64,000 nucleotides of DNA from Ariolimax columbianus (taxonomy: Eukaryota > Mollusca > Gastropoda > Stylommatophora > Arionidae), in NCBI GenBank assembly GCA_036924085.1, contig JAVGWX010000011.1, positions 27,828,317 to 27,892,316 on the forward strand, given 5' to 3'. The notes below the pieces were generated by a model. It worked only from the letters and a program-made list of their open reading frames with translations. It was not told the origin of the DNA and did not search any database. This document shows positions 2,855 through 54,904 of the stretch, piece after piece. Numbering within the stretch: position 1 is the first letter of the stretch; every line of letters starts with the position of its first letter. Both the position numbers and the translations under genes were made by a program.

Positions 2855-3150
2855 GTCTCTGTAAGCCGACATTCAATCTTGTCTCTGTAAGCCGACCTTC
2901 AATCTTGTCTCTGTAAGCCGACCTTCAATCTTGTCTCTGTAAGCCGACCTTCAAGCTTGTCTCTGTAAACCGACCTTCACTCTTGTCTCTGTAAGCCGAC
3001 CTTCAATCTTGTCTCTGTAAGCCGACCTTCAATCTTGTCTCTGTAAGCCGACCTACAATCTTGTCTCTGTAGGCCGATCTTCAATCTTGTCTCTGTAAGC
3101 CGACCTACAATCTTGTCTCTGTAAGCCGACCTTCAATCTTGTCTCGCTAA
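2855..3150. repeat. 26-bp minisatellite, about 11 units (copy A)
   Basis: Tandem units share the core ctctgtaagccgaccttcaa. Most are 26 bp with point changes. Copy B has the same array at about 49845-50060 with about 8 units. The taagccgac word also occurs singly near 47390. Confidence 0.9.
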
Positions 3151-3159
3151 AGGCAGCAT

Positions 3160-3819
3160 CATCCACACGGTAGCGTGCTAGCTCTCTGGCTATAACTGAT
3201 GTTCTGACAGAACGTTGTGTTTCTCATAGCTTGGGTTGACTTCGTTCGTTCTCAATCTCTCACTACCAAGTCCACAGAGGGATTTAAGTAGCAGAATGTA
3301 GTCCAGTGAACGGAATGCAATGTGTCGATTGACTGCAATATTTGCACTTTCCGGTCTGGCACATCAGGTTCTTTTTTGGGCTGGCATATTTTGAGTACTT
3401 GTTAGTCTTCCCTCTTAAATACATTCTCCTTTGAGTGTCTGCTCTGTTACGGCCTGCTATTCAGGATCACCGCGTGGAGGTTTAGAAAAGTCTGGGCAGC
3501 TCTGGTTTGCTGGCCCTGACGCTAGCAGTCAGCTATGGGTCGCTGACCGCCACAGCTCATGCGTTGCTCAGAGTCTTGACCTAGTGTTCAATTCGTGTTC
3601 AATGAGCAAACGATGTAATAGAATTTATATAATCTGATTGATTGATTGATTCACATGTTCGTTCTAAATGAAGGATATGGTCACCATTAAAACTGGCATT
3701 TTTACAGGAAGCCTGAAGCTGCGTAGTATGATGTCAAATATGAATGGTTTAACAAAATATGAATGTTTGTAATCATGGCAACCATCTTTAGAGGTCTTTC
3801 AGAAAATGTCTAGATGTTA
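3160..3819. other. Unique sequence without a recognisable gene (copy A)
   Basis: About 660 bases between the 26-bp array and the LINE insertion. It is closely matched by copy B 50060-50731. Short open frames occur in both copies but show no recognisable domain. A small gattgattgattgattc tract is present near 3636. Confidence 0.5.
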
Positions 3820-5297
3820 CACATTTGATCGGCGCATGACATGGAAAAGTCAGATCGAGAGAAACCGAATGAGAGCCAGAGAAAGAATTGCAATCATGAG
3901 AAAACTTGCTGGCACAAGCTGGGGAGCAGACGAAAGTATACTAAAGAAACTGTACACTGGAAGAGTGAGACCAGTTTTAGAGTATGGCATTGCGGCATGG
4001 ACAGCAGCAGCAAAGGCTAACTTCGATAAAGTTAGCAAACTCCAAAACCAAGACATGAGAGTTATAACAGGAGGCATGAAGTAACGCCAATTGTAGAACT
4101 TGAAAAGATTACAAAACTGCAATCCATGGCCGACAGAAGAGATTGCAGAGCCCAGCTGCAATCAGAGAAACTCAGAAGACTGACTGACCACCCAATGCAC
4201 CAGAGACTAAACAATTTCGGAAGTGGGAAACTAAAGCGAAGAAACTTTGCAGAAATAGCCAAAGCAAAGATGCACGAAAACCCCATGAACGCACTAACAA
4301 CACCAAAGCCCATCCCTACTGTACGAAAACCTACCTGGAGGCAGCATATATTTCCAGAGGTGGTAGAAAATATACCAAATATTAGAAACAAAAACTGCCA
4401 GTATGAAAAAGAAAGAAGAGATACTACCCTGAGTTACATTAAGGAAAACTACCCAAGCATGAACTGGACCCATGCATTCACCGACGGTTCCGTAACAAAT
4501 ACAACACAGAACGGAGGGGCAGGAGCATTCCTGAGCCTACCAAATGGCAGAAAAATTACACTGTCATTCGCTACTGGAAAATACACAAGCAATTTCAGAT
4601 CGGAGGCAGAGGCACTGAGGGCGGCAGTGGAAGAAATGGTGACAGGTAAAAGGAATGAAAGCCACATAGTTCTGCTTACAGATGCCCTGGCCGTAGTCAC
4701 AGCTCTGAAAAGCCAGAAAAATACTGAACTTAACGATTTAAGAGCAGTACTCTGTCAACTATGCCAGGAGGCCGCACCAAAAAAGAGTTGCGATGCAGTG
4801 GGTCCCATCTGACTGCAACATCCAAGGCAACGATTAGGCAGACAGACTGGCAAAAGAAGGTGCAAAACTACCACAACCTGATACTAGTATGACATACGAA
4901 GAGTCAAAACGACTTATTAGAGCTAGAAACATGACCAAATGGGAAACCGAACATACTGGCTACACCAAAAACGATGCCTATTGCCAGTTGAACAGAAAAG
5001 AGCAGGTCGTGGTCTTCAGACTTCGCACTGGCCACAATAGACTCAGGTACCACCTATTCAACAAATTGAAAATAGGTGGCACAGACGAATGCCCGTGTGG
5101 TAGCGTGAAAATGACCGCTGAGCATTTGCTGCAAAACTGCCCGACATACGAGGATCAGAGAGAGCAGATGTGGCCATCACCAGTGGCAACACTAGACAAG
5201 CTCTATGGCAGTGTCGACAGCCTCAGGATGACGGCTGCTTTTTTCGAAACAATAATGGTTACTGTCTGACTGCGTACGACGAAGAAGAAGAAGAAGA
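3820..5297 (+). mobile_element. 5'-truncated LINE, family alpha (RT thumb, RNase H, C-terminal domain)
   Basis: Starts abruptly in the RT segment TFDRRMTWKSQ. It continues through a connection region (RPVLEYGIAAWT), then an RNase H domain with TDGS near 4480, SEAEALRAA near 4600 and LLTDAL near 4675. A C-terminal domain has a CPCG...EHLLQNCP cysteine motif near 5090-5140, and the element ends with a (GAA)n tail. At least two frame disruptions are visible: one between the connection and RNase H parts near 4080, and one after LLTDAL near 4800. There is also a stop in the last RNase H block (ND*AD). Copy B has the empty site at 50731/50732, so the insertion postdates the duplication or is polymorphic. 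No target-site duplication is evident. Confidence 0.9.
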
Positions 5298-6150
5298 AAT
5301 TCAACTGATTCTTGTCAATCCGAGTACCCCTAACGACGCTATCGTCATTGTAAAAACGTGCTAAGGTAACACAATACATTAGTCCTACCAGCTCTCTGCT
5401 GTAGAGAGCCAGCTGATAACAACACGAGCATCACTTGAAAGACGTCTTGTGGATCTAATACCCAGGAAACATCGCAAAGAGGTCAACATAATAAGGGCAT
5501 CAGAGAAATGACTTACATCAAATATATGCTGCAATACGTAAACAATTCCAAACACGGCCCAGCAGGTCACGTAGGTTGATGAAAGGACGGGAGATTGAGA
5601 ATTGCAAGTACTCTATCGTACCAGCGTGACAAACAGACAGAACATTGTGGCAGCGTCATAAAATGCATTAGGAAAGTGTACTGAAGACTGCAGACAGATC
5701 TAAGCATCTAAGCACAACATGAGAGTAAAGACATAATCAAGTAGAGAACACCTTCAGTAAACTGAATAGAGGACAAACAAATCAGACAACAGATCGACCC
5801 ACTCAATGCGCAAACAGCATAACAAGAAATATTTACAAGTTTCTAACAATCCTATGAAAAGAATGAACACTGTCTCATCAACTGTTCACAACTTTCTAGC
5901 TGCATGTAACGGTAACACAGTCACAAAACAGTACAGACGTTAAACAGTGTACACTAATAAAGTAAAGCCTTCTCGTTAAATATCTAGAACGGTCTAGTAT
6001 CGTATCAAGTCAACATGTTCATAAACTATAAAAGGCCAATGACAGATTATAGTAAACACAAGATAAACATCAGACCGATCACCCAGAGCGAACTAACAAC
6101 ATCTCAATACACGCCAGCCACACTGAACTGGTGATTACATAAAGACTACT
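5298..6150. other. A+T-rich sequence with no gene seen
   Basis: About 850 bases, matched by copy B at 50732-51590 with few differences. Only short frames occur, and none has a recognisable motif or shared protein signature. Confidence 0.5.
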
Positions 6151-6154
6151 AACA

Positions 6155-7400
6155 GTTTAGACCCGAGATTTGAACCATCTGCTACCATCAGTCGAGACTA
6201 AATGTCTGAACCATCTGCCACCATTAGTCCAGACCAAAGATTTAAACCATCTGCCACCATCAGTCCAAATCCAAGATTTGAACCATCTGCCACCATCAGT
6301 TCAGACCCGAGATTTAAACCATCTGCCACCATCAGTCCAGACCCACGATTTGAACCATCTGCCACAATCAGTCCAGACCCAAGATTTAAATCATCTGCCA
6401 CCGTCAGTCCACACCCAGGATTTGAACCATCTGCCATCAGTCCAGACCTAAGATTTAAATCCTCTGCCACCGTCAGTCCAGACCCAGAATTTGAACCATC
6501 TGTCACTAACAGTCTAGACGCAAGATGTGAACCATCTGCCACTAATAGTCTAGACCCGAGATTTGAACCATCTGCCACCATCAGTCTAGACCCAAGATTT
6601 GAACCATCTGCCACCATCAGTCTAGACCAGAGATTTGAACGATCTTTAACCATCAGTGCAGACCTAAGATTTGAACCATCTGCCACCAACAGTCTGGATC
6701 CAAGATTTGAACCATCTGCCACCATGAGTCTAAACCCGAGATTTGAACCATCTTTAACCATCAGTCCAGACCCGAGATTTAAACCATCTGCCACCACCAG
6801 TCTAAACCCGATATTCAAGCCATCTACCAATAACAGCCTAGACCCAAAACTTGAACGATCTATCAAAAACAGTCCAGACCGAAAATTTGAACAATATGCC
6901 ACTAACAGTCTAGACCCGAGATTAAGACTATCCACAATCAACAATCCAAACCCGTGGTTTGAACCATCTGCCATCAACATACTAGACCCTAGATTTGAGC
7001 CATCTGTCACCACAGTCTAGACCCGAGACTTGATTCATCTGCCATCAACAGTCTAGACCCGAGACTTGATTCATTTGCCATCAACAGTCTAGACAAGCGA
7101 TTTGGACCATCTGTCACAAACAGTCTAGACCCCAGATTTGATCCATCTGCCATCAACAGTCTAGAACCGAGATTTGAACCATCTGCCATTAACAGCCTAA
7201 ACCCATAATTTGAGCCATCTGCCACTAATAGCCTAAACCCGAGATTAGGACCATCCACCACTAACAATCCAGACCGGAGATTTGAACCATCTGCCACTAA
7301 CACTATAGACCCAAGATTTTAACTATCTGTCACCGACATTGTAGACCCAAGATTTGAACCATCTACCACTAACAGTCTAGAACAAACATTTAAACAATCT
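6155..7400. repeat. 36-bp minisatellite, about 34 units (copy A)
   Basis: Units share the cores gatttgaaccatctgccacc and agtccagaccca and are about 36 bp long. The period is divisible by three and the unit lacks stops in several frames, so long frames stay open on both strands at once (272 codons on plus, 271 on minus over nearly the same bases). Translations are simple 12-residue repeats (plus: FEPSATISPDPR). That is expected from the repeat and is not evidence of a gene. Copy B has about 22 units at 51590-52400. Confidence 0.9.
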
Positions 7401-7551
7401 ACCAACAACGGTCACGATTTAACTATCCGGAAATTTGTATAACATGTCGCTATGATCTTCCTGCAAACAGCCTGTACACACACATCGCAAAAGGAGGTGC
7501 CTCCCTCGGCGGAAATGCTATTAACCTCCACAACATTCTTGTTTCCTTTAC

Positions 7552-7660
7552 AATTGGTCTCTAAGACAGCATGAGTGTTGGGCTGTTTGCTCTGAAGCGT
7601 ATCAACTATATTCATAAGCAGCGTCTCCTGTTGGATTACAGCCATGGCCTCAGGAAGAAG
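7552..7660 (+). pseudogene. Chemosensory GPCR relic (copy A)
   Basis: Two short blocks match the intact receptor at 19548-20630. The block tctaagacagcatgagtgtt at about 7559 continues into gggctgtttgctct and corresponds to the loop/TM2 start (KDSMSVGL.AL). The block tgttggattacagccatggc at about 7632 corresponds to CWITAM of TM3. The roughly 130 bases that normally separate them are collapsed to about 35, so the TM2-loop-TM3 stretch is deleted. The same relic is in copy B at 52543-52655 with a further small deletion, so the decay predates the duplication. Confidence 0.7.
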
Positions 7661-7784
7661 TTAACGGTTAAACTAATGGTCCTAAGGTGTTGGGATATTT
7701 TAATTACAAACCGCTCACTTTGAAATGTTCTTAGATGTAACAGTTAGTGTCACGTGACTACTTTTGTTTGGTGTTGGCCATATG

Positions 7785-8085
7785 TGCTCAGTAAGGGTCG
7801 GTTACTCTGTAAGGGTCGGTTACTCAGTAAGGGTCGGTTACTCTGTAAGGGTCGGTTACTCTGTAAGGGTCGGTTACTCAGTAAGAGTCGGTTACTCAGT
7901 AAGGGTCGGTTACTCTGTAAGTGTCGGTTATTCAGTAAGGGTCGGTTACTCTGTAAGGGTCGGTTACTTTGTAAGGGTCGGTTACTCTGTAAGGGTCGGT
8001 TACTCAGTAAGGGTCGGTTACTCTGTAAGGGTCGGTTACTCAGTAAGGGTCGGTTACTCAGAAAGGGTCGGTTACTCAGTAAGAA
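7785..8085. repeat. 18-bp minisatellite, about 17 units (copy A)
   Basis: Tandem unit gtaagggtcggttactca with ca/ct variants. It opens frames in several registers (VGYSVR on plus, LLSNRP on minus) because 18 is divisible by three. Copy B has expanded the same array to about 42 units at 52785-53555. Confidence 0.92.
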
Positions 8086-8089
8086 CAAA

Positions 8090-9355
8090 AACACACGTCA
8101 GGTATAACGTTACTGTGACACCACAATCGGAAGGCAAGGTCAAGGGAAGGTCAAGCCACGAGCGTTTATTTTTAGTTCAGGAGACTTATACACAGAGTAT
8201 ATATGCTGACTGCAGTCTTCTAAACGAGACGTTAAGTCACGTTAACTTATATGCGCTGTACAGATACTGAAAGTCATATGACTGCTATGTAGACATAAAT
8301 AATACTGAAACTCAGGCAACCAGCACCTGAATTAAAATATGGAAAGAAAACTACAAATGTATATGAAGTAAAGAAATCGTATACTGTTCATAACGATAGA
8401 CAACCAGGACTGTTATGTTGTGACTCGTTTTTTACAGCGAGGATCATTCATTCAGTTAGTGGTTCTTGTTTATAATCTCCATTGCATTTACTTTACTTGT
8501 TTTTTTTTCTTCCGGGTTCTGATGTGTGCGTGCGTATGTGTGTGTGTGTGTGTATGTGTTCTACGAGTGCTTGCAATACACTTGTCTTTACTCTTGTAAT
8601 GAATGCATGTTTATTTAGCCTTAATGTAGATTTACCCACTGCACATGATCAGAGACAGATAATCGGTACCAAAATTACCACTGCGCGTCTACTGAATTAG
8701 TTCGCACACAGAAACAGAGTAAATTCACATCCACTCCACTTTTCTAGATACTCCCTGCACAATGTCAACAAAAAAGATGTTTTGATTAGGTCAAAGCCGG
8801 ATAATCGCTTTAACAAGAAATAACATATCTCCAAACACGAGATCGCGTTATGTAAACAGACAAGTCATCAAATCGATTATTTGGTTCCAGGAAATGTTCA
8901 AACATGTTGACAGTCAGGTATTAGTTATTGGTCGAAAGAGCTAATGTGGCTAAAGGGACTGAGTGCAGTTAGGGATGAAGTGTTCAAACATGCTGCTTTT
9001 CAGGTATTAGTTATAAGACGAAAGAGCTAATGTAGCTAAACGGACTAAATGTAGTCAGGGATGAAGTGTTAAAGCCTTAACATTGTACGACGTCTCAGCT
9101 GTGCGGGTTGGCAGGTGCGCCTCCACGATTTATCAAACTGTATGTCTGGTGTACTTTAAAGCGGAGCAGACTGACGGTGCCCCATCCGACGATCGAATAC
9201 AATACCTTTTTCGATAAAGGCTGGTTAACCACCCAGACGCTAATTTGACTGTGGAAGTACTGTACAAACAAGATGGATGTGTGGTAACGGGGACAACTTT
9301 ACACCGTCGTGTTACCATTGTTAGTCTTCGCCTAGGAGAGGGATGGGGTAAGGCG
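8090..9355. other. Unique sequence with no confident gene; TG microsatellite at 8526-8552
   Basis: Closely conserved in copy B (53560-54900), apart from a 40-bp segment present only in B near 54225. A 61-codon minus-strand frame at 9133-9318 translates identically in both copies, and its two nucleotide differences are synonymous, but it matches no family I know. No coding call is made. A short TG/TA tract lies near 8526-8552. Confidence 0.45.
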
Positions 9356-9875: not shown

Positions 9876-10118
9876 CTAACAATCGACGTCATTGCACTCT
9901 GGGCACACCCATAGGGGCTCAGTCTCTCTCATCAAATGGCGTAGGGTATGGATGCAGATGGTCCATGTAGATCGCTGGTTGTACACTCTCATGCGCTGTC
10001 CTCTCATGCGCCCAACTCCGCTCGAACCTCGTTTAATGTCGAAACTTTGCAGTCTGGATTGCTGCTTCATCTATTGCGGTGTCCTCATCAAGCAGGCGGT
10101 CATTGATTGATTTCAAAA
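9876..10118 (-). pseudogene. LINE family gamma C-terminal relic, right part of a split element
   Basis: On the minus strand this encodes ILKSINDRLLDEDTAIDEAA and then a degraded tail. It continues, across the chimeric insertion at 10119-16295, with the minus-strand family gamma RNase H and RT relic at 16296-17040. Copy B carries the undivided relic at 55440-56250, and a third diverged copy lies at 39060-40790. The element was already inactive when it was split. Confidence 0.75.
10106..10118 (+). other. Left target-site duplication of the chimeric insertion
   Basis: Sequence attgatttcaaaa, preceded by g. The 18S-derived sequence begins at the next base. The target lies within a family gamma LINE relic. 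Confidence 0.88.
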
Positions 10119-10965
10119 CGGGGAATATGGGTTCGATTCCGGAGAGGGAGCATGAGAAACGGCTAGCACATCCAAGGAAGGCAGCAGGCGCGCAACTTAC
10201 CCACTTCCGGCACGGGGAGGTAGTGACAAAAAATAACAATACGGGACTCTTTCGAGGCCCCGTAATTGGAATGAGTACACTTTAAACCCTTTAACGAGGA
10301 TCTATTGGAGGGCAAGTCTGGTGCCAGCAGCCGCGGTAATTCCAGCTCCAATAGCGTATATTAAAGTTGTTGCAGTTAAAAAGCTCGTAGTTGGATCTCA
10401 GGCGCAGGCGGGCGGTCCGGCTCGCGCCGGTTCACTGCCCGTTGTCTCCTGCCCTACCGTCTGCCGGCTCTCTTTCACGGGTGCTCTTCGCTGAGCGTCC
10501 TGGGTGGCCGAGCGTTTACTTTGAAAAAATTAGAGTGTTCAAAGCCTGGCCTCGGCTGCCTGAATAATGGTGCATGGAATAATGGAATAGGACCTCGGTT
10601 CTATTTTGTTGGTTTTCGGAACTGGAGGTAATGATTAACAGGGACAAACGGGGGCATTCGTATTGCGGCGTTAGAGGTGAAATTCTTGGATCGCCGGGAG
10701 ACGAGCTACTGCGAAAGCATTTGTCAAGAATGTTTTCATTAATCTAGAACGAAAGTCAGAGGCGCGAAGACGATCAGATACCGTCGTAGTTCTGACCATA
10801 AACGATGCCGACTAGCGATCCGCAGGAGTTGCTTCGATGACTCTGCGGGCAGCTTCCGGGAAACCAAAGTGTTTGGGGAAGTATGGTTGCAAAGCTGAAA
10901 CTTAAAGGAACTGACGAAGGGCACCTCCAGGAGTGGAGCCTGCGGCTTAATTTGACTCAACACGG
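10119..10965 (+). pseudogene. 18S rRNA-derived segment (internal part of the gene)
   Basis: Carries hallmark eukaryotic 18S words: ttcgattccggagagggagc, ggtgccagcagccgcggtaa, ttaaaaagctcgtagttgga, ttaatttgactcaacacgg. It starts well inside the 18S gene, shortly before the ttcgattccggag helix, and stops just after the ttaatttgactcaacacgg helix, so both ends of the gene are missing. It has changes at normally invariant sites (for example ggaactgacgaagggcacct in place of ggaattgacggaagggcacc) and a small deletion after aaagtgtttgggg. It is thus a pseudogene fragment and not part of an rDNA unit: there is no spacer or 5.8S around it. Confidence 0.92.
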
Positions 10966-11833
10966 ACAACACTGAAATGACTGACATGCGGAGACCACTT
11001 TCGTTGGGTCTAATATGGAACGGGTGCTGGATCTAGACCCTCGGAAAACTGGGGTAATGCTCTCTGTGGCTCGGTTGGTCTGCATTCAGTGTTTAACAAA
11101 GGAATTGACGGAAGGGCACTAATGAGATGAGCCTGCGGCTTAAATTGACTTAACACGCCAATATTGTAGAACGACTGTCAAATAGAGAGACTTTCGTTGG
11201 GTCAAATAGTGAACATGTGCTGGTATTAGACCCACGGAAGACAGGTCAGTCTCTTAACCCCCTATTGAAAGAACGTCTGCTATGGTAATCTGGTCTTAGC
11301 CCTGCGGAAATCGCAGGTTCCTGAAACTTGGCCATTGACAAACAAAAAGCCCTCTATTGATACGTCTGGTCAAATAGTGAACGTGTGCTGGAAATAGACC
11401 CTAGGAAGACAGGTCAGTTTTATCCTACTAATGACAGGGCGTTGCTACGGTAATCCTGCTCAACTCGAGAGGAGCCGCAGACATCTGGTTCATGTACTAG
11501 GCTGATAAGCGAACGGCGCGAGGCTACCATGATAAGGATTACGGCTGAACGCCTCTAAGCCAGAATCCCACCCAAAATCACAGCACTATTGCAATGGGAG
11601 GCTTCGACAGGGTGGGGATCTGGGGCTCACGCTGCAGCCCCGCCCGGTCGAGCCGCAGAAAGAGGTCCTTGCCGCCCGCCGATCAAAGCGGGCGGGAAGC
11701 TGCTCGATATTCACCCCATGCGGCGATGAGGTGCGAAACAACAAACAGAAGTCTTAGTTCTGGGTCGGGGTGTCGTAAACAGTAGAGCAGCCACCTCACT
11801 GTGAACTGTCGAGACTCAGCCCCTGGCCATGAG
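10966..11833 (+). pseudogene. Rearranged 18S/28S segment ending at the 28S rRNA 3' end
   Basis: From about 11190 the sequence follows the 28S 3' domain: agtgaac.tgtgctgg, agacaggtcagttttatcct, cggtaatcctgctcaa, ctgaacgcctctaagccaga, and finally ttctgggtcggggtgtcgta and agcccctggccatg near the mature 28S end. The 28S word (gaac.tgtgctgg... tagaccc) appears three times, near 11010, 11208 and 11380. The 18S word ggaattgacggaagggcac reappears near 11101. This implies an internal duplication of an 18S-28S junction module of about 190 bp. ITS1, 5.8S and ITS2 are absent. Boundaries are approximate. Confidence 0.8.
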
Positions 11834-12352
11834 ATATGCCCGCACACCAGGCGAACAACATCTCGGTGACATTTCCAGGCTCTTCCCCTGGTTAAATGCA
11901 CTCCTGCTTCTATCTTCCCCTCCTCTATCTGCTATCAGCCATACCAATGGACGCAGAAGAGATGCAGGCTATCGGACATTGCACATCTGCCCTACTGTGT
12001 CAACCTCCAAGGTGGCGGGGAATGCTAGGCGTACTATCACTGCAGATGTGCCGAGCAAAGAGATACCCCACCCACATGCACATGATACGTTTCTGGCAGG
12101 ACGTGACGATCCTGAGATACAGACACACTGGACTGCCTCTCTTCTGGGTTAGTACAAACCAGTACATAGTCCATATCATATAACAAATCTCATATATCAT
12201 CACCGCACCCTATAGACACGAGTAGTGAAGACTCGTTAGTCTGGTAAGACAACTTCCATAAGAGAGACAACTCTGATCACAAACAACTGCTGCCTTGCAG
12301 ATAGGCTGGGGACAGCCAAAGGCTAAGGAGGGCATCCGTACAGAAACGCCTG
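11834..12352 (+). other. Unassigned 5' segment of the chimeric element
   Basis: Lies between the 28S 3' end and the endonuclease frame. A frame of 107 codons (11829-12152) and an overlapping one of 95 codons exist, but neither shows an esterase, coiled-coil, RRM or CCHC motif typical of LINE ORF1. It may be the LINE 5' UTR, a degraded ORF1 or 28S-flanking spacer. I cannot tell which. Confidence 0.4.
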
Positions 12353-15300
12353 TTGAAATCGGATGCACTGGGCCACAAGCTTAACATACAGTGCAACGTA
12401 AATCGCAGTATAATGACAGTACAACTTATCAGAAAAACGTATGGCGCTCATCCTGCGGAGTCCCGCCAGGCAGCGAGAGTGCCGGGCCTCATGCCTCGAA
12501 GGGGCCCACCCTTGACTACTGGTGGTCACCCACCCATATGTTGTGGAGTCAAGGCACATGGCTATGGGGCAATTCCTATTGAAAAAAAACTCAAGACCCT
12601 CAAAATACTACAGTGGAATGCGGAGGGAGTCATTAACAAAAAGCTATCCCTAACACATCACTTGCATGAAGGTAAGATTGACGTGGCATGTATCAAAGAA
12701 ACGCACATCAACAGCAACCATACATTCTCAATCAGAGGATACCAGGCCTTCCGCCTGGATAGAGAAGGTCACAAAGGAGGGGTTCTGATACTGACCAGAA
12801 ACTGCATACCGAGTAGCGCGGTATTTGTCAACCACACCGGACAAGCAGAAATTGTAGGAGTAGACATAATGGCTCAAGAGACGAAGATCCGCATCTTCAA
12901 CCTGCACGGACCACCAAATAAAGACCTATCGCTCTTGAGTATGGAAGTCAAGGACTCCAACTGCATAGTAGTTGGAGACTTCAACAGCCACTCGGAGAGA
13001 TGGGGATACTCGCACACAGACAGCAGAGGTGACGAAGTGAAAGATTGGGAGATAGACACGAATCTCCATCTAATCAATGGGCCGGAGGATAGCCCTAGTT
13101 TATATTCTAGAACATGGCATACCACCTCGACTCCAGATTTGGCCTTCTCCACAATGGACATTCACCATAAAATAGACCGCCAGGTGCTAAACCAATTGGC
13201 AGGTAGCGACCACAAGCCAATTAGGCTAGAAATTAATATGGAAGTAGGCCCACAGGAAACAAAACTGCTCCCACGTTGGAATTACAAACGAGCCGACTGG
13301 GACAGATTTGCAAGCCTGACAGATGGGCTGTGTGAAACCATCAACACACGGAACAACAAAATGAAGTCCATGGTGGAAAGCCTAAGCAAAGCAATAATGC
13401 AAGCTGCCACTGAAACCATCCCAAGAAGGGCAAGGAAAAACTTTAAGCCCTATTGGAATGATGACTTGCAAAAAGCGGAAGACACAGTCACAAATGCTAG
13501 GAACATGGCAGAGCGAGAACAATCTATGGAGGCAAACATCGCCCTCAAAGTCGCCACGGGGAAATACAAATACACTCTAAAGCAAACAGCAAGAGAAAGC
13601 TGGAAAAACAAAACGGAAAGACTCAACCTAGACAAAGAAGGGAACAAACTATGGAAGTTAGTCAGAGCCATGAATGACGAAACTCCGTCAAACAAACAAA
13701 TTACCATCAAGCAAGGCGAAAACTTGCTCACTGAAAAAAAAGCCGCAAACGCCTTTGTTGAACACTATGCCAAAGCGAACCACATAGATGTCCCTGCAGA
13801 TAGGCATACAGACATTAATGATGAGCAAAAGGGGCACGACACCATCAATATGGCACCAGAAGAGCATATGATGGCAAAGTTAACAATGAATGAAATGGAA
13901 GAGGCCATGTGAACATTAAAGAAAAGGAAATCTCCCGGAAAAGACGGGATAACAAACGAAACGCTGATGGGGCTGGGCCAATCAGCAAAAACGAAACTGC
14001 TATCAGTCCTAAACGAAAGCTGGAAAAGGGGTATTGTACCCCAGGCATGGAAAGGCGCAGTACTTGTACCAGTACCAAAGAAAGGAAAAGATAAAACAGA
14101 TCCAAATGGATACAGGCCTAACAGCCTACTGAGCTGTGTCGGCAAACTGATGGAAGGTATGATAAACCCCAGACTGATGTGGCATCTGGAAGAAAAACGG
14201 ATACTAATTCCACAGCAAGCTGGCTTTAGACAGCACAGATCCACTGAGGATCAGGTCATCCTCATAGGCCAGGAAATAGAAGACGCCTACCAGGAACAGA
14301 AACACACAGTAGCGGTCTGGGTGGACCTGGAAAAGGCATTTGACAAAGTCTGGAAAAATGGACTGAGAGTCAAGCTAAGAAGAAGTGATGTTTGTGGGAA
14401 AATGTACAAGTGGATCAACCACTACCTCAAAAAAAGAACGGCCAGAGTCCAAGTACAAGGGCAGATGAAAAAAAGGTGACACTCGAGCAGGGAGTACCCC
14501 AAGGAGGAGTACTGTCACCTACACTCTTCCTGGTGTATATAAATGACATTATAGAGAATATACCAAGAAGAGTTCATAGCTCAATGTTTGCAGACGATCT
14601 GGCTATGTGGACCTCTGAAAAGAATCTCACCATAGCAAGAAATCGGATGCAGCAGGCCCTAACATCGCTGGAAGAGTGGGCGAACTCATGGCTGGTCAAA
14701 ATAAACGAGGACAAAACCACATGTACAATATTCTAGCTATCAATCAAACCCCAAAACACCAAATTAAGTCTAAACAGCAAATACCTTCAGCCAAACGACA
14801 ACCCAAACTATCTGGGAGTCACATTTGATCGGCGCATGACATGGAAAAGTCAGATCGAGAGAAACCGAATGAGAGCCAGAGAAAGAATGGCAATCATGAG
14901 GAAACTTGCTGGCACAAGCTGGGGAGCAGACGAAAGCATACTAAAGAAACTGTACACTTGAAGAGTGAGACCAGTTCTCGAGTATGGCATTGCGGCATGG
15001 ACAACAGCAGCAAAGGCGAACTTCGATAAAGTTAGCAAATTCCAAAACCAAGCCATGAGAGTTATAACAGGAGGCCTGAAGTCAAGGCCAATTGTAGAAC
15101 TTGAAAAGATTACAAAACTGCAATCCATGGCTGACAGAAGAGACTGCAGAGCCCAGCTGCAATCAGAGAAACTCAGAAGACTGACTGACCACCCAATGCA
15201 CCAGAGACTAAACAATTTCGGAAATGGGAAGCTAAAGCAAAGAAACTTTGCAGAAATAGCCAAAGCAAAGATGCACGAAGACCCTATGAACGCATTAACC

Positions 15301-16297
15301 ACACCAAAGCCCATCCCTACTGTTCGAAAACCTACCTGGAGGCAGCATATATTTCCAGAAGTGGTAGAAAATATACCAGGTATTGGAAACAAAAACTGCC
15401 AGTTTGAAAAATAAAGAAGAGATACTACCCTGAGTTTCATTACGGAAAACTACCCAAGCATGGACTGGACTCATGCATGCACCGACGGTTCCGTAACAAA
15501 TACAACACAGAACGGAGGGGCAGGAGCATTCCTGAGCCTACCAAATGGTAGAAAAATAACGCTGTCATTCGCTACTGGAAAATACACAAGCAATTTCAGA
15601 GCGGAGGCAGAGGCACTGAGGGCGGCAGTGGAAGAAATGGTGACAGGTAAAAGGAATGAAAGCCACATAGTACTGCTTACAGATGCACTGGACGTAGTCA
15701 CAGCACTGAAAAGCCAGAAAAATACTGAACTTAGTGAATTAAGAGCAGTACTCTGTCTGTCAACTATGCCAGCAGGCGGCACCAAAAAGAGTAGTGGTGC
15801 AGTGGGTTCCATCTCACTGCAACATACAAGGCAACGAGGAGGCAGACAGACTGGCAAAAGAAGGTGCAAAACTACCACAACTTGATACTAGTATGAAATA
15901 CGAAGAGTCAAAACGGCTTATTAGAGCTAGATACATGACCAAATGGGAAACCGAACATACTGGCTACATCAAAAACGATGCCTATTACCAGTTGAACAGA
16001 AAAGAGCAGGTCGTGGTCTTCAGACTTCACACTGGCCACAATAGACGCAGGTACCACCTATTCAACAAATTGAAGATAGGTGGCACCGACGAATGCCCGT
16101 GTGGTACCGGGAAAATGACCGCTGAGCATTTGCTGCAAAACTGCCCGACATACGAGGATCAGAGAGAGCAGATGTGGCCATCACCAGTGGCAACACTAGA
16201 CAAGCTCTATGGCAGTGTCGACAGCCTCAGGATGACGGCTGTTTTTTTTCAAAAAAATAATGGTTACTGTCTGACAGCGTACAAAGAAGAAGAAGAT
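12353..16297 (+). pseudogene. LINE family alpha polyprotein: AP endonuclease, reverse transcriptase, RNase H
   Basis: Near-complete ORF2-type protein in pieces. The first frame (519 codons from 12353) holds the AP-like endonuclease. It has QWNAEG (about 12611), KETH (about 12698), VVGDFN (about 12971) and GSDH (13202-13213). An in-frame TGA at 13910 interrupts it, and the same frame resumes with the RT: motif 2 AGFRQHRSTEDQ, motif A VDLEKAFDKVW (14321-14353). A one-base shift in an A-run near 14470 moves to motif B GVPQGGVLSP and motif C FADD (14587-14598). Stops occur at 14734 and near 14959. RNase H follows with TDGS (15481), AEAEALRAA, LLTDAL and, after another shift, HCNIQGNEEAD (about 15810). 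The C-terminal domain has CPCGTG...EHLLQNCP. This domain order fits I-group, nimbus-like LINEs (inference). It inserted as part of the chimeric block but is now inactive. Confidence 0.9.
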
Positions 16298-16308
16298 TGA
16301 TTTCAAAA
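16296..16308 (+). other. Right target-site duplication of the chimeric insertion
   Basis: Sequence attgatttcaaaa immediately after the agaagaag tail of the LINE. It is followed by tgacatttcctttcgg, which matches copy B 55662 onward. Confidence 0.88.
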
Positions 16309-17045
16309 TGACATTTCCTTTCGGTACTTTCTGAAGTACGGTTTGCGCGTCTGTCTCGATGACTGCCCTTGTTATAGAAGTCTGAGATATCCATTTCAAT
16401 GCTGAGGTCACTGATTCCGTCTCAATTCTCATACTGGAGGTTCTTGACATGTATGCCCTACCGCGCTCAGCAACGACCTCGCCTCCCACTCTAGCCTAGA
16501 AACCGTAGCCTGATGTCGCACTGCGTACGACTGATCCGTCGGTGTATATGGCAGCATCATTCTTCTGGGTGTTCTCAGTTATTAGCTGGTTTACCTCGTG
16601 CTCTGCTCTCCCGTTGCTCCGTTCTCTGCATTCCTTGCCTAAGGTTATGATGACTCTTTTGTACTCTATCGTTCTATCACCAGTGTGGACCCATTCTTCC
16701 CCTTTGGCTATCGTCTCAGCTGGAGTGAACAGGAGACGTTGTTCCAAGTCCGCAGCAGCCATGGTCTTGAGTGCTCCTAACCCTCTCTTGCATCTTTGTA
16801 CGATGTGGTTAACATGGCAGTTATAGGAAAGACTGCGATCAAAAGTCACTCCGAGGTATTTCACCTGTCCCACCTGTCAATGGTGCAACCATCAAAAGTG
16901 ATGCCCGTAAGTTCAGCCTTACTATGGAATTATTCAAAGAGCACCACATCATGCAGGCCTTGTTCGGATTGATCTTGGAGCTTGAGTCGCCGCACCACTG
17001 TGAGATTGCTTGCAAGGTTTCCTGGCAGTGCGTCTTTTAGGACAG
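16296..17045 (-). pseudogene. LINE family gamma RT/RNase H relic, left part of the split element
   Basis: On the minus strand: KYLGVTFDRSLSYNCHV (end of RT), IVQRCKRGLGALKTMA, then a deletion to TIAKGEEWVHTGD and AAIYTDGSVV (RNase H start). The RNase H continues with YMSRTSSMRIETESVTSALK and IETDAQTVLQ, in shifted frames. TDGS, ETE and TDA are the expected acidic positions of RNase H. Copy B lacks about 155 bases of this RNase H (A 16338-16495). Confidence 0.8.
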
Positions 17046-17229
17046 TGTGCGATCTAACTTCACGCCTAGATATTTTGGAGCCGTGAATTGTTCAAGCTCC
17101 TACATGTGTCACCTGATCAGAAGTTTTCTTTGTGCTTCTCTGTTTCTGAGGTGGTAAGTACATACCTAGGTTTTACTGGGATTTGGTTTAAAGTGATTCT
17201 TGTGCTAATGTTCTGGAAGGACATTGAGA

Positions 17230-17485
17230 GAGCTTGTTTTCAATGTCCTCTTTTGTGCGCTCTGAAAAGGGCGTTAAAGTGGCAAATTGTAGTTGCTTTC
17301 CTCACATCCCGAGCGTGCTGATGATGTTGGACCGTGGTTCTCCAGGCGGTTGTGCTATGCTTGGTTTCATCTGCTTGACGCTTACTGCTACCTGAATTAC
17401 GTCGATCCATATTTCGCCATCCATACTTCCTTGAAAACATCTGTTTCAAGGAAAGGCTACATAGAAGAGAGACAGTAGTCTTGAT
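17230..17485. repeat. Dispersed repeat, copy 1 of 3
   Basis: The sequence around gtagctttcctcacatcccg and ttgtgctatgcttggtttca recurs at about 56440-56645 (duplication copy B) and, more diverged, at 27310-27480 outside the duplication. The unit must therefore be dispersed on its own account, probably as a transposon fragment. Its minus-strand translation (QADETKHSTTAWRT) is shared with the 27-kb copy (HADESKHSTTTWRT). I cannot name the element. Confidence 0.6.
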
Positions 17486-18110: not shown

Positions 18111-18424
18111 TTACGCATGACGCTTACACAGCCGACTCATCACACGAGTACCCATTGTGCAGAAAAGTTTGCGTACTAGGATTGGTTTCTATAGCCATAT
18201 GAGAACACAGCTACCAGCACTAGTCTGATGCTGCCGCCACTTTCACTTGCGATGAGCAACAATTAATATTATTTTTATTATTATTGTTATTACTGTTAAT
18301 TCATTTAATTGTTTAATCAACTTTCCGAACTGCACAATTTCAAATTTTGCTCAATTATATTAGCAACTGATTTATTCTTCGGTGTTTTCGTTTTGTGAAA
18401 ACCGTGCAAAGAAAATATTGGTGC

Positions 18425-19365
18425 AAAGATATGTTGTCTACTGTTGCTGTTTTAATGTAAAACAGCGTTATGTCGTCTACTGTTTCTGTTATAATGTAAA
18501 ACTGTGTTATGTTGTCTACTGTTGCTGTTATAATGTAAAACAGCGTTATGTCGTCTACTGTTTCTGTTATAATGTAAAACTGTGTTATGTTGTCTACTGT
18601 TTCTGTTATAATGTAAAACTGTGTTATGTTGTCTACTGTTTCTGTTATAATGTAAACCTGTGTTATGTTTTCTACTGTTTCTGTTATAATGTAAACCTGT
18701 GTTATGTCGTCTACTGTTTCTGTTATAATGTAAAACTGTGTTATGTTGTCTACTGTTTCTGTTATAATGTAAACCTGTGTTATGTTTTCTACTGTTTCTG
18801 TTATAATGTAAACCTGTGTTATGTTTTCTACTGTTTCTGTTATAATGTAAAACTGTGTTATGTTGTCTTCTGTTTCTGTTATAATGTAAAATTGTGTTAT
18901 GGTGTCTACTGTTGCTGTTATAATGTAAAACAGCGTTATGTCGTCTACTGTTTCTGTTATAATGTAAAACTGTGTTATGTTGTCTACTGTTTCTGTTATA
19001 ATGTAAAACAGCGTTATGTCGTCTACTGTTTATGTTATAATGTAAAACTGTGTTATGTTGTCTACAGTTTCTGTTATAATGTAAAACTGTGTTATGTTGT
19101 CTACTGTTTCTGTTATAATGTAAAACTGTGTTATGTTGTCTACAGTTTCTGTTATAATGTAAAACTGTGTTATGTTGTCTACAGTTTCTGTTATAATATA
19201 AAACAGCGTTATGTCGTCTACTGTTAATGTTATAATGGAAAACTGTGTTTTGTTGTCTACAGTTTCTGTTATAATGTAAAACTGTGTTATGTTGTCTACT
19301 GTTTCTGTTATAATGTAAAACTGTGTTATGTTGACTACAGTTTCTGTTATAATATAAAACAAGTC
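18425..19365. repeat. 39-bp minisatellite, about 24 units (copy A)
   Basis: Units contain tgttatgttgtctactgttt and ctgttataatgtaaaac. The period is 39 bp and free of stops, giving a 281-codon plus frame of 13-residue units (YCFCYNVKLCYVV) and an opposing minus frame. Copy B has about 8 units at 57655-57975. The array ends about 180 bases before the GPCR start. Confidence 0.92.
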
Positions 19366-19547
19366 TGCTTGTTTCTGGCGCCACGCCATCAAAAAGAAAC
19401 GTATGCATAAAACCAACATTTGCTGGATTGATTCCCACAGAGCAAGAGAATAACGGAGAGTCAATAAACAGCATCGTGAAAAGCGGCAGAGAAACGCTTT
19501 GTCGTCTGCGATTAAACGATTTATGTAACCAGACACCTGACTACAGA

Positions 19548-20757: not shown

Positions 20758-20879
20758 GTGTCAATGATACATTATCATCATCATTAAGTGTTCTGCCAAT
20801 TGGCGTTGGTGGTCATGGACCTCCGCCCGATTCTATCACGGGTGTCGTTTTCCAAATATGTTGTTGATTGTCACTCTTG

Positions 20880-23800
20880 CCTGTCTCAAGCTGTCAGACA
20901 TCTTCTCTCTCGGCGTTCCTCTGTCTCTCAAGCTGTCAAACATCTTCTCTCTCGGCGTTCCTCTGTCTCTCAAGCTGTCAAACAAAATCTTCTCTCTCGG
21001 CGTTCCTCTGTCTCGCAAGCTGTCAAACATCTTCTCTCTCGACATTCCTCTGTCTCTCAAGCTGTGAAACATCTTCTATGTCGGCCTTCCTCTGTCTCTC
21101 AAGCTGTCAAACATCTTCTCTCTCCGCGTTCCTCTGTCTCTCAAGCTGTCAAACATCGTCTTTCTCGGCGTTCCTCTGTCTCTTAAGCTGTCAAACATCT
21201 TCTCTCTCGGCGTTCCTCTGTCTCTCAAGCTGTCAAACATCTTCTCTCTCGGCGTTCCTCTGTCTCTCAAGCTGTCAAACATCTTCTTTCTCGGCGTTCC
21301 TCTGTCTCTCAAGCTGTCAAACATCTTCTCTCTCGGCGTTCCTCTGTCTCTCAAGCTGCCAAACATCTTCTCTCTCGACGTTCCTGTCTCTCAAGCTGTC
21401 AAACATCTTCTCTCTCGGCGTTCCTCTATCTCTCAAGCTGGCAAACATCGTCTTTCTCGGCGTTCCTCTGTCTCTCAAGCTGTCAAACATCTTCTCTCTC
21501 GGCGTTCCTCTGTCTCTCAAGCTGTCAAACATCTTCTCTCTCGGCGTTCCTCTGTCTACAGCTGTCAAACCTTATCTCTCGGCGTTCCTCTGTCTCTCAA
21601 GCTGTCAAAGTCAAACATCTTCTCTCTCGGCGTTCCTTTGTCTAAAGCTGTCAAACCTTATCTCTCGGCGTTCCTCTGTCTCTCAAGCTGTCAAAGTCAA
21701 ACATCTTCTCTCTCTGCGTTCCTCTGTCACAAGCTGTCAAACATCTTCTCTCTCGGCGTTCCTCTGTCTCTCAAGCTGTCAAACAACTTCTCTGTCGGCG
21801 TTCCACTGTCTCTCAAGCTGTCAAACATCTTTTCTCTCGGCGTTCCTCTGTCTCTCAAGCTGTCAAACATCTTCTCTCTCGGCGTTCCTCGTTCTCAAGC
21901 TGTCAAACATCTTCTCTCTGGGCGTTCTTCTGTCTCTCAAGCTGTCAAACAACTTCTCTCTCGGCGTTCCTCTGTCTCTCAAGCTGTCAAACATCTTCTC
22001 TCTCCGCGTTCCTCTGTCTCTCAAGCTGTCAAACATCGTCTTTCTCGGCGTTCCTCTGTCTCTTAAGCTGTCAAACATCTTCTCTCTCGGCGTTCCTCTG
22101 TCTCTCAAGCTGTCAAACATCTTCTCTCTCGGCGTTCCTCTGTCTCTCAAGCTGTCAAACATCTTCTTTCTCGGCGTTCCTCTGTCTCTCAAGCTGTCAA
22201 ACATCTTCTCTCTCGGCGTTCCTCTGTCTCTCAAGCTGCCAAACATCTTCTCTCTCGACGTTCCTGTCTCTCAAGCTGTCAAACATCTTCTCTCTCGGCG
22301 TTCCTCTATCTCTCAAGCTGGCAAACATCGTCTTTCTCGGCGTTCCTCTGTCTCTCAAGCTGTCAAACATCTTCTCTCTCGGCGTTCCTCTGTCTCTCAA
22401 GCTGTCAAACATCTTCTCTCTCGGCGTTCCTCTGTCTAAAGCTGTCAAACCTTATCTCTCGGCGTTCCTCTGTCTCTCAAGCTGTCAAAGTCAAACATCT
22501 TCTCTCTCTGCGTTCCTCTGTCTCAAGCTGTCAAACCTTCTCTCTCGGCGTTCCTCTGTCTCTCAAGCTGTCAAACATCTTTTCTCTCGGCGTTCCTCTG
22601 TCTCTCAAACTGTCAAACATCTTCTCTCTCGGCGTTCCTCTGTCTCAAGCTGTCAAACATCTTCTCTCTCGGCGTTCTTCTGTCTCTCAAGCTGTCAAAC
22701 AACTTCTCTCTCGGCGTTCCTCTGTCTCTCAAACATCTTCTCTCTCGGCGTTCCTCTGTCTCTCAAGCTGTCAAACATCTTCTCTCTCGGCGTTCCTCTG
22801 TCTCTCAAGCTGCCAAACATCTTCTCTCTCGACGTTCCTGTCTCTCAAGCTGCCAAACATCTTCTCTCTCGGCGTTCCTCTGTCTCTCAAGCTGTCAAAC
22901 ATCTTCTCTCTCGTCGTTACTGTGTCTCAAGCTGTCAAACCTTATCTCTCGGGGTTCCTTTGTCTCTCAATCTGTCAAACATCTTCTCCCTCGGCGTTCC
23001 TCTGTCTCTCAAGCTGTCAAACATCTTCTCTCTCGGCGTTCCTCTGTCTCTCAAGCTGTCAAACATCTTCTCTCTCAGCGTTCCTCTGTCTCTCAAGCTG
23101 CCAAACATCTTCTCTCTCTGCGTTTCTGTCTCTCAAGCTGTCAAACATCGTCTCTCTCGGCGTTCCTCTGTCTCTCAAGCTGTCAAACATCTTCTCTCTC
23201 GGCGTTCCTCTGTCTCTCAAGCTGTCAAACATCTTCTCTCTCGGCGTTCCTCTGTCTCTCAAGCTGCCAAACATCTTCTCTCTCGGCGTTCCTGTCTCTC
23301 AAGCTGTCAAACATCTTCTCTCTCGGCGTTCCTCTGTCTCTCAAGCTGCCAAACATCTTCTCTCTCGGCGTTCCTCTGTCTCTCAAGCTGTCAAACATCT
23401 TCTCTCTCTGCGTTCCTCTGTCTCAAGCTGTCAAACCTTCTCTCTCGGCGTTCCTCTGTCTCTCAAGCTGTCAAACATCTTCTCTCTCGGCGTTCCTCTG
23501 TCTCTCAAGCTGTCAAACATCTTCTCTCTCTGCGTTCCTCTGTCTCAAGCTGTCAAACCTTCTCTCTCGGCGTTACTCTGTCTCTTAAGCTGTCAAACAA
23601 CTTCTCTGTCGGCGTTCCTCTGTCTCTCAAGCTGTCAAACATCTTCTCTCTCGGGGTTCTTCTGTCTCTCAAGCTGTCAAACATCTTCTCTCTCGGCGTT
23701 CCTCTGTCTCTCAAGCTGTCAAACATATTCTCTCTCGGCGTTCCTCTGGCTCTCAAGCTGTCAAACATCTTCTCTCTCGGCGTTCTTTTGTCTCTCAAGC

Positions 23801-24000
23801 TGTCAAATATCTTCTCTCTCGGCGTTCCTCTCTCTCAAGCTGTCAAACATCTTCTCGCTTGACGTTTCTCTCTCTCTCAAGCTGTCAAACATCTTCTCTC
23901 TCGATGGTCCTCTGTCTCTCAAGCTGTCAAACATCTTCTCTCTCGGCGTTCCTCTGTCTCTCAAGCTGTCACACATCTTCTCTCTCAGCGTTCCTCTGTC
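20880..24000. repeat. 42-bp minisatellite, about 74 units (copy A)
   Basis: Units run aagctgtcaaacatcttctc then tctcggcgttcctctgtctc. The modal period is 42 bp, with shorter variants that shift register. All three plus frames and the minus frame (FDSLRDRGTPREKM) stay open for long stretches; the longest is 523 codons. It contains a higher-order duplication of period 880 bp (about 21100-21600 repeated at 21980-22480). Copy B has about 11 units (59480-59945). I read it as non-coding satellite DNA. Confidence 0.92.
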
Positions 24001-25085
24001 TTGTCTTCCTGGTTACACCGATGAAAATACAATGAATTCCGTCGTTCCGCATTCTGTCTGTCATGGTAACACCGAAGACCTTCCTCAACCACTTCCTTCC
24101 ACACGTCGAAATTCTGCTCTCACGTGCCCTGGACAGAGGTCATGTTTGGCACTAGTAGCACAGAGTCGGCATAACTATACTGTTTATCAGCTGTTGCTTT
24201 ATTGCCAAACTAATGCTGGGGCGTCTAAGCAGTAACGACAGCTGATAAGTCACCGCAGATGCTTTCTGATACAGTCAAGATTTCCCTGTCGATACTACCG
24301 TCTACCGAAAAAATCTTGCTCAAATACTTGAATTCATGGACCTGTTGAAGACAGTACATTTTCATGATGGTACAGCAGAGACTGATCATCTACAGAGTAA
24401 TTCGTGTATTGAGTTCTGTTCTGCTTCAGATGTCTAAATGTATGACCTATCAAGAATCAAAAGGTTAGCATAGAGTTATCAGATTGACTTTAAAATTCCA
24501 CAAAATAGTTATTATTGTTGGCCAAATTGAACTTTCAACTAAATTATTTATTACTGTTAGGATTTACCGAACTATTACCATATTAGGGTCACGAAAGGGC
24601 TATCATGCATCATGTCGCCGGTCATCGCCAGAATAACCGAGCAATGTTACCCAATAAAGTTAGTGGTCAAACCTATTACAGACCGCCAGTCAAGGCGACA
24701 ATAACATACGGGAAAGACGAGTTATATAGAGTTAAAAGTAGGGACAACACATCAATTAAAAAGTTAATTCACTTCATGCCGAAAATAAGAATCAAGCTCT
24801 GTCAAAATTTGCACACGTGATAGAACCATGACAGTCGCAGACAAGTAGAGCGAGAAATAGAACCTACTACTTAAGTGATTGCCCCTCTAAAATCACTCCC
24901 TTGAATATTCCATGCTCAGACACGAGATTTGCGACTTTGACTTGAGCGGAAGTTTGTTCACTTACGACCGACCAACTGGACAACAGATTTAACAGAAAAT
25001 CAGCCAAGTCGACGAGACCTGATTTGTAAGTAAATTAAACAGGAACAACTGTGTAAACAAAGTTATCAATGTGAAAAACACTATT
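24001..25085. other. Unique sequence downstream of the 42-bp array (copy A)
   Basis: Matched by copy B 59946-60631 and 61634-62035, with a sequence of about 1 kb inserted in B between them. Short frames such as 24605-24820 are not conserved as protein between copies, and no domain is recognised. Confidence 0.5.
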
Positions 25086-39055: not shown

Positions 39056-39059
39056 ATCG

Positions 39060-49164: not shown

Positions 49165-49320
49165 GACACTCAGCGCCACATATGACCTTAGTCACACTCA
49201 CGCTTCGTCTGTCCAGCACTCAGCGCCACATATGACCTTAATCACACACTCGTCCCGTATTTCCACCACTCAGGGCCAAAAATGACATTAGTCCCACCAC
49301 CACGTCTCGTCTTTCGCTCC
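49165..49320. repeat. Imperfect tandem repeat of about 55-60 bp (copy B)
   Basis: Three units with the cagcgccacatatgacctta core; one unit fewer than copy A (2150-2320). Confidence 0.7.
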
Positions 49321-53555: not shown

Positions 53556-53559
53556 ACTG

Positions 53560-54900: not shown

Positions 54901-54904
54901 TGTT

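Follow-up and report, generated by a model that had tools for sequence, protein, structure and literature searches.

Structure of the insertion

Positions 10119-16295 of the analyzed 64,000-nucleotide stretch of Ariolimax columbianus DNA (the window) are occupied by one insertion with a 13-bp target-site duplication (TSD). As the original prediction of a single insertion had claimed, identical 13-mers (attgatttcaaaa) border the block on the left (10106-10118) and on the right (16296-16308), and the sister copy B carries the target once without an insert (55649-55661). The same is true of a third copy, copy C (39281-39293), and these features all read on the + strand. The block itself, likewise on the + strand, had been described as passing from 18S rRNA to the 28S rRNA 3' end and on to a LINE with a GAA tail, and each of these parts was recovered: Rfam matched 18S and LSU, Pfam matched an APE-type endonuclease, and GAA repeats are present at the end.

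The copy is 5'-truncated within 18S and opens with an 18S rRNA-derived leader (10119-10965), which corresponds to 18S ~380 to 1237. Rfam places the start of 18S at ~10119, with pieces scoring 320 and 120 bits. Alignment of 10117-10965 to the genome's own rDNA (L050:2004-2861) gave 97.1% identity, with 14 substitutions in 846 positions and 10 gap positions over 10119-10965; the array unit L050 consists of N from L050:3402 onward. The tail of unit 1 follows (10966-11095, extent judged by eye), where the 18S runs on in diverged form with 15 nt deleted, before a short 28S-like piece. Unit 2 (11096-11367) combines a decayed second 18S piece (~1175-1236) with a 28S piece recognized by eye; it is 75.7% identical to 10904-11052 and 87% identical to 18S, and its Rfam match is weak (16.4 bits). 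Unit 3 (11368-11840) is a degenerate 28S 3' end that reaches the 28S 3' terminus, the Rfam LSU match at 11436-11837 covering model positions 3005-3399 of 3401. The 18S comes first and the 28S 3' end later, as predicted, but the arrangement is not a plain 18S-then-28S: a decayed 18S/28S unit lies between them, and the 28S part is strongly degenerate. A spacer of ~0.46 kb (11841-12304), in which the single frame tried has three stops, leads from the 28S 3' end to the ORF.

The element has a single ORF. Its 5' part (12305-13909) encodes an APE-type endonuclease at ~12608-13225 (Pfam Exo_endo_phos and Exo_endo_phos_2), a region that matches LINE endonucleases in the PDB. The remainder (13910-16270), with reverse transcriptase, RNase H and a C-terminal Cys/His motif recognized by eye, is broken in the window copy and is followed by the GAA-repeat 3' tail (~16284-16295). 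Of the endonuclease, reverse transcriptase and RNase H expected for this LINE, the endonuclease was found in the window copy; RVT_1 and RNase_H were obtained by search in copy L038, where the ORF is open as one stretch of 1,048 codons, and not in the broken window copy. Between the window copy and L038, the endonuclease, reverse transcriptase and simple-repeat tail expected of a LINE are all present. The region upstream of the endonuclease showed no ORF1 among frames of at least 230 codons in 17 sequences, a threshold that a shorter ORF1 would escape, and Rfam listed no HDV-like ribozyme at E ≤1 in 10000-12700.

Other pieces of the same LINE are present in the window. A 5'-truncated copy at 3820-5296 (+ strand, 94.7% identical to 14820-16296) is missing from copy B, and a search found RNase_H in a fragment of the LINE at 4036-4812. 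A 3' fragment lies at 47682-48556 (+ strand, 88.5% identical to 15405-16296), and an endonuclease-region fragment at 62747-64000 (- strand, 91.8% identical to 12636-13889) is cut by the window end.

Database comparisons of the block gave no match to phages by megablast. The 18S part had no match among phages and no exact match among viral contigs; against plasmids, 24 of 25 records gave no more than short 11% matches, those listed being haloarchaeal, and the remaining record was a mislabelled 18S entry.

A high-copy family with a shared rRNA leader

A 36-nt pattern of the 18S/LINE junction, searched with at most one mismatch in the 2.29 Gb host genome, was found at 4,345 places (2,183 + 2,162), and the reversed control at 0. 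The best 40 genomic matches listed for the query 11436-12600 were all 88-100% identical. Twenty copies were cut out, the window copy included, and 17 of them include over 100 nt of the 18S part, with differing truncation points; L041 and L043 are near duplicates of one locus. The proposed check, whether copies elsewhere in the genome carry the same 18S/28S leader, thus gave a positive answer, and these shared leaders together with the 4,345 junctions strongly support the suggestion of a LINE lineage whose 5' region derives from rRNA. Subfamilies exist, a copy on C296 being 87.8% identical to L036.

Target-site duplication and variable 5' truncation were both observed, the duplication being clear in the window copy. 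Among 10 other copies checked, TSD-like repeats occur in L034, L042 and L046 and possibly in L036, each of them inside or close to local repeats; a clear TSD was absent in L030, L032, L035, L038 and L047, and the 3' end of L039 was not found. Copies lie on chromosomes with unrelated flanks and, unread rDNA units aside, not at a fixed rDNA insertion site of the R1/R2/R8 type. The APE-type endonuclease is located upstream of the reverse transcriptase, unlike the restriction-like endonuclease of R2, which lies downstream of it.

The 5' end of the full element

The full element measures ~7.2 kb and consists of external transcribed spacer (ETS), 18S 1-1237, the 18S/28S mosaic, the degenerate 28S 3' end, ~0.46 kb of spacer, the ORF and the GAA tail; longer copies continue past the 18S 5' end through ~0.64 kb of ETS. 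All four copies readable at the 5' end (L036, L039, L042 and L046) start at the same base, AT(A/C)TGGG, and the leader matches rDNA from L050:1005 onward. The rDNA at this common first base reads TATATTATCTGGGGTAG, the presumed RNA polymerase I (Pol I) start. L039 has an extra unit upstream of its 5' end.

A search for the rDNA promoter upstream of these four copies gave chance matches only; they are the informative ones among seven, L040, L044 and L047 being cut short inside the ETS. With a query starting 6 nt above the L036 end, 38 of the best 40 matches listed, L036 among them, reach the common 5' point, and the fixed 5' end is taken from the four copies and not from this listing by itself. 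When the rDNA promoter was used as query, the best 40 matches listed were all 100% identical and all in C50, C67 and C86, and weaker matches, possibly from dispersed copies that carry promoter sequence, could rank below these. The spacing of the units in C67 is unusual. A 5' end at the presumed Pol I start with no promoter upstream in four of four copies would be consistent with a Pol I cotranscript.

Divergence of the leader and the LINE

Family sequences were compared with rDNA in an alignment of 15 copies, from which L034 was dropped as too short there, to which L043, L031 and L049 were added, and which left out L033, L037, L041, L045 and L048. The 18S majority sequence is identical to that of the genome (0 differences in 1,237 positions), and the match to rDNA is lost abruptly beyond 18S 1237: directly past this boundary 41 of 79 positions of the family majority differ, deleted ones counted. 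The majority ETS of eight copies differs from rDNA at 63 of 615 positions (~10%) and carries a common ~33-nt stretch missing from the rDNA arrays; two of the assembled arrays from which it deviates agree with each other over 671 bp. In the 28S part of unit 3, the family majority differs at 40 of 186 conserved columns (~21%), the age being scored on columns conserved in other eukaryotes and not on host 28S, with five of eight LSU loci as 28S reference (L002, L003, L004, L005 and L007; L001, L006 and L008 were left out). Judged by their sequence divergence, the 18S and 28S parts of the leader differ in age.

Trees and site counts were based on seven of the 20 extracted copies, those that reach the ETS; the larger alignment comprised 13 sequences. 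Parsimony-informative sites made up 1.0% of 18S, 3.5% of the spacer, 2.9% of the ORF and 8.6% of the ETS, and singletons 17.8%, 17.8%, 19.1% and 29.2%, respectively, the ETS value being 20.6% without L040. Post-insertion decay is alike for 18S, the 28S part, the spacer and the ORF, but not for the ETS. The scarcity of common changes in 18S compared with the 28S part alone was not significant (Fisher 0.13). The topology of L046 differs between the ETS tree and the LINE tree.

Origin and expression of the element

Taken together, these sequences show a dispersed high-copy LINE with a front end from the host rRNA transcript, and it may move on the ribosomal gene promoter. With a joint probability of about 0.58, we consider the block to belong to a high-copy LINE family as a copy truncated at its 5' end and placed by one ordinary target-primed reverse transcription event, and the LINE RNA to arise by Pol I cotranscription with rRNA from masters linked to rDNA, where we infer both the Pol I step and the location of the masters. 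The full-length family RNA would begin where Pol I presumably starts on the host rRNA gene, and it would then span the ETS, 18S to 1237, the mosaic, the degenerate 28S 3' end and the single endonuclease/reverse transcriptase/RNase H frame. Pol I would transcribe it together with rRNA from a master copy linked to rDNA, which would supply the promoter that the LINE itself does not carry. Through contact with rDNA the 18S would stay the same as in the working gene, with the remainder drifting, and the majority of dispersed copies would be dead on arrival. Full contact with the assembled arrays would have refreshed the ETS too, so that the ~10% divergence of the family ETS counts against cotranscription. 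Among the matches listed, no master copy was found in an assembled rDNA unit on C50, C67, C86, C190 or C222, arrays that are incompletely assembled; this search covered the best 40 matches listed for each of three queries (11436-12600, the LINE 3' half and the element 5' end). At somewhat less than even odds, the family would represent a LINE lineage that has lost ORF1 and its own promoter and travels with the rRNA gene as its passenger, with a Pol I start, a leader of ~2.7 kb, an 18S kept by rDNA and thousands of dispersed copies.

Alternatively, the LINE could be autonomous, with a promoter inside its captured rRNA leader and perhaps an internal ribosome entry site as well, with active dispersed copies and selection keeping the 18S. 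The first base common to four of four copies and the thousands of copies are usual for autonomous LINEs, and the existence of subfamilies fits as well, but an 18S majority without a single change over 1,237 nt would be extreme for a functional UTR when the adjoining ETS varies most, and the 5' end of the element matches the rDNA sequence found at the presumed Pol I start; we regard this explanation as rather unlikely. Still less probable is a renewal by copy choice, in which the reverse transcriptase often switches to abundant pre-rRNA and thereby replaces the 18S, and sometimes the ETS, at insertion. The identity of family and genomic 18S would follow from it, and the deviating topology of L046 speaks for it, as does a relative (L052/L055) that is joined to pre-rRNA elsewhere, in apparent ITS1. 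This relative of the window LINE, with 12 mismatches in 640 in the ETS, ~99.6% identity in 18S and a junction found once in the genome, looks like the product of a one-off fusion with pre-rRNA. A single switch, however, would renew the ETS too, and the family ETS is ~10% off and contains the ~33-nt stretch that the arrays lack.

The original prediction had also offered a template switch at this very insertion, from LINE RNA to 28S and 18S rRNA. Chimeras of human L1 with 28S rRNA are known (PMC13174262), and L052 resembles such a chimera, but the junction of the window copy is not private to one locus as in a one-off chimera: its recurrence at 4,345 places and the same leader, common to 17 of 20 copies and truncated at different points, refute this origin for the window copy and leave it a very small probability. 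The lowest probability of all falls to an assembly artefact or to separate insertion of the rRNA and LINE parts. rDNA is frequently misassembled, but one TSD encloses the whole block, two empty sites exist, and the same structure recurs at many places with its own flanks, which refutes both; separate insertion, named beforehand as an outcome that would speak against a single event, was not borne out.

Relation to known elements and implications

Several known elements share single traits with the Pol I-cotranscribed LINE proposed here. Internal promoters are frequent in LINE 5' UTRs, and mouse L1 carries tandem monomers in its 5' UTR; the window LINE also has repeated 5' units, but its units 1-3 are 18S/28S mosaics. 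SINEs are short and non-coding. R2 has, like the window LINE, a single ORF, yet it targets rDNA with a restriction-like endonuclease, whereas the window LINE combines an APE-type endonuclease with dispersed targets and its own rRNA 5' leader. To our knowledge, the LINEs known to rely on rDNA transcription sit within rDNA. R2 RNA arises by processing of a 28S cotranscript with a promoter supplied by rDNA, a source of transcription that the window LINE may share, and a fish R2 lineage acquired 28S-derived sequence in its 3' UTR (PMC5035012, PMC3414825). The human L1/28S chimeras resemble the window LINE in that the rRNA piece is mostly sense, lies at the LINE 5' end and arrived in one insertion event, but they were found at 18 loci, with 28S stretches of 50-482 nt, whereas the window family has a fixed ETS + 18S + 28S leader in thousands of copies (PMC13174262). 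The same report names rRNA-derived SINEs (5S, 28S), in which the rRNA part also belongs to a LINE-spread family; in the window LINE it heads a protein-coding LINE (PMC13174262).

The RNA of this dispersed protein-coding LINE appears to begin where the rRNA does, and the LINE may therefore use Pol I although rDNA is not its target. If made by Pol I, this RNA would be uncapped, which raises the question of how an ORF behind a ~2.7 kb rRNA-derived leader is translated. Earlier forms of the host ETS survive in the family copies, and partial 18S copies that number thousands in one genome can mislead rRNA annotation as well as barcoding.

A single insertion in the window

The 6,177-bp block at 10119-16295 is flanked by identical 13-bp repeats (10106-10118 and 16296-16308), a target-site duplication. 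It lies in copy A (about 1536-25681) of a duplicated segment, of which copy B (about 48562-62745) and the shorter copy C (about 39040-40490) each hold one target without the insert. The block thus entered the genome as one unit, as the original prediction had claimed from the duplication and the empty site in copy B. Rfam places the start of 18S at 10119 and the 28S 3' end at 11436-11837, stopping two model positions before the 28S terminus. Both rRNA parts of the predicted order, 18S to 28S 3' end to LINE, were recovered, but the stretch between them is occupied by diverged repeats built from pieces of both rRNAs.

Copy A, but not copy B, holds a further copy of this LINE at 3820-5296, truncated at its 5' end; no obvious target-site duplication was found there. 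Another, reversed LINE remnant (16400-17300 and 55450-56076, minus strand), RNase H-like as read by eye, adjoins the target site in the duplicated segments. The window also holds long minisatellite arrays, several common to copies A and B, e.g. 18274-19470 (39-bp units), 20845-24001 (42 bp), 43985-45259 (39 bp) and 6081-8215 (36 and 18 bp).

A LINE family with an rRNA-derived leader

Window 11436-12600 (28S part and spacer) was used to query the 2.29-Gb host genome and gave at least 40 matches, with 88-100% identity among those listed. Twenty loci, window included, were cut out with 1.5-kb flanks. Of these, 17 contain over 100 nt of the 18S part, while L014, L015 and L029 begin at or past window position 10950; 5' truncation points vary among copies (10119 in the window, 10178, 10180, 10214, 10701, 11273). 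A 36-nt pattern spanning the 18S/LINE junction (at most one mismatch) occurred at 2,183 places on the forward strand and 2,162 on the reverse, counts that take in segmental copies such as a cluster on contig C1 near 103-105.6 Mb, and its reversed control at 0 places genome-wide. The rRNA leader is not private to the window copy. The original prediction had weighed an rRNA-LINE template switch at this insertion against a LINE lineage with an rRNA-derived 5' region, and proposed inspecting the 5' ends of other copies. There, the 18S/28S leader recurs genome-wide with a common 18S/LINE junction; recurrence at thousands of places, with 18S reached in most loci read, strongly supports the lineage and refutes a switch at the window insertion.

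On C1, about 103.2-105.6 Mb, at least 28 element junctions point the same way, with many of them spaced by about 57 kb; this cluster is a large tandem segmental array bearing the LINE.

The endonuclease part of the window copy is open (12305-13909) and the remainder of its ORF broken, and copy L038 has a 1,048-codon frame with RVT_1 and RNase_H, open to the tail region. No ORF1 candidate upstream of the endonuclease was found among frames of at least 230 codons in 17 sequences.

Among top-ranked matches in open-access PMC texts, no LINE family with an rRNA-derived leader was found; the family may already be catalogued in Repbase-type libraries, its leader uncommented. Among these matches, the nearest reported cases are human 28S/L1 chimeras (PMC13174262) and R2, with cotranscription and, in fish, a 28S-derived 3' UTR (PMC5035012; PMC3414825).

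A common 5' end upstream of the 18S

Seven of the 20 copies have a leader that extends above window position 10119, beyond the 18S 5' end and on into sequence resembling the ETS. The extension measures about 960-1,025 bp in six copies; in the shortened L040 it comes to about 820 bp. L036, L039, L042 and L046 share a common first base, AT(A/C)TGGG; L047 and L044 start slightly inside it. A 5'-region query gave at least 40 genome matches, and 38 of the 40 listed, L036 included, extend to the L036 5' end. L036, whose length from the 5' end to the tail is about 7.2 kb, sits within a (TATTG)n stretch. L042 is flanked by 13-mers with one mismatch and L046 by identical 12-mers; since both sites are locally repetitive DNA, these duplications are less sure than that of the window. 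In L039 (oriented 1186-1653), an 18S/28S mosaic unit stands immediately upstream of the long copy's 5' end, as if tandem addition of units were possible.

An 18S 3'-end pattern (up to 3 mismatches) marked 56 genome places, and its reversed control 0; the places include sets on contigs C50, C190 and C222 spaced near 12.2-12.3 kb or multiples. One unit, L050 (N from 3402 on), served as rDNA reference. The element leader aligns with it from L050:1005 onward, where the rDNA reads TATATTATCTGGGGTAGTTG. This is a putative Pol I start, judged from the shared 5' end of the copies and from features of such starts. Upstream of L036, L039, L042 and L046, comparison with the 710 bp of rDNA ending at the start gave chance matches only. 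When the start and the 500 bp of rDNA before it served as query, all 40 matches listed were 100% identical and lay in C50, C67 and C86; these are the best 40, and weaker dispersed matches could fall outside. On C67, spacings computed by hand from these matches are often about 12,150 bp. Others are near 11.2, 16.3, 17.0 and 18.6 kb, which would fit insertions or deletions in part of the units; gaps longer than these may be units outside the list.

Leader parts of apparently different age

Fifteen copies, eight of them covering the ETS, were aligned to L050. The majority letter equals genomic 18S at 1,237/1,237 positions, with individual copies 0 to 5% off (0/274 in L030, 61/1,200 in L044), and the match to rDNA ends abruptly beyond 18S 1237. 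The ETS majority (8 copies) differs from L050 at 63/615 positions and the family ETS carries an additional stretch, about 33 nt long and variable among copies. By eye, this stretch is partly found in L055, a further rRNA-LINE fusion, and may therefore be an older state since lost by the rDNA arrays. In the 28S part the family differs at 40/186 conserved columns, with one gap besides; left-out 28S controls (L002, L003, L004, L005, L007) differ at 16/204, 10/205, 18/204, 29/220 and 15/201, gaps apart. Because the 28S part departs at conserved columns and the 18S majority equals the genomic gene, the alignments make the former look like a long-standing part of the family and the 18S of its masters, the presumed source copies, like the present-day gene.

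L002-L008 are eukaryotic rDNA on seven contigs from six bacterial MAGs. The 1,764 bp of L009 (NZ_CP050525.1), recorded as 'Acinetobacter plasmid', are eukaryotic 18S rRNA (Rfam 1657 bits) and probably a contaminant.

Changes were counted in seven ETS-reaching copies and compared with 18S by uncorrected Fisher tests. Per site, singletons are about as frequent in 18S (17.8%) as in the 28S part (18.3%), spacer (17.8%) and ORF (19.1%), so that dispersed copies give no sign of constraint on 18S; the mosaic is higher, not significantly (22.6%), and the ETS stands at 29.2%, or 20.6% without L040. Parsimony-informative changes are fewest in 18S (1.0%); the other parts have 2.1% (28S part; 0.13, not significant), 2.9% (ORF; 0.005), 3.5% (spacer; 0.002), 5.0% (mosaic; 5e-4) and 8.6% (ETS; 2e-13). 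On these shared changes, 18S seems to have been held fixed in the masters while most other parts drifted. The simplest explanation would be renewal of the masters' 18S by supply or conversion from rDNA, with selection on 18S in the masters, which would likewise keep it fixed, as the main rival. Under renewal, the ETS differing from the assembled arrays speaks against full contact of the masters with those arrays.

Other rRNA-LINE fusions

Of the places matching the 18S 3' end, three that lie outside the array sets were read. In L052 (with L055), ETS (12 mismatches in 640 plus 20 gap positions versus the array), 18S (about 99.6%, 131 nt being deleted) and apparent ITS1 are fused to unit 3 of a LINE relative that is 84% similar to the window; the junction occurs at one place in the whole genome (up to 3 mismatches). 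L053 reads as a dispersed 18S-ITS-28S piece, and the part of it that was read contains no LINE. In L051, 18S near position 1708 is fused to units 2 and 3 before exiting into other sequence. The fusions thus point to contact between this LINE group and pre-rRNA on more than one occasion.
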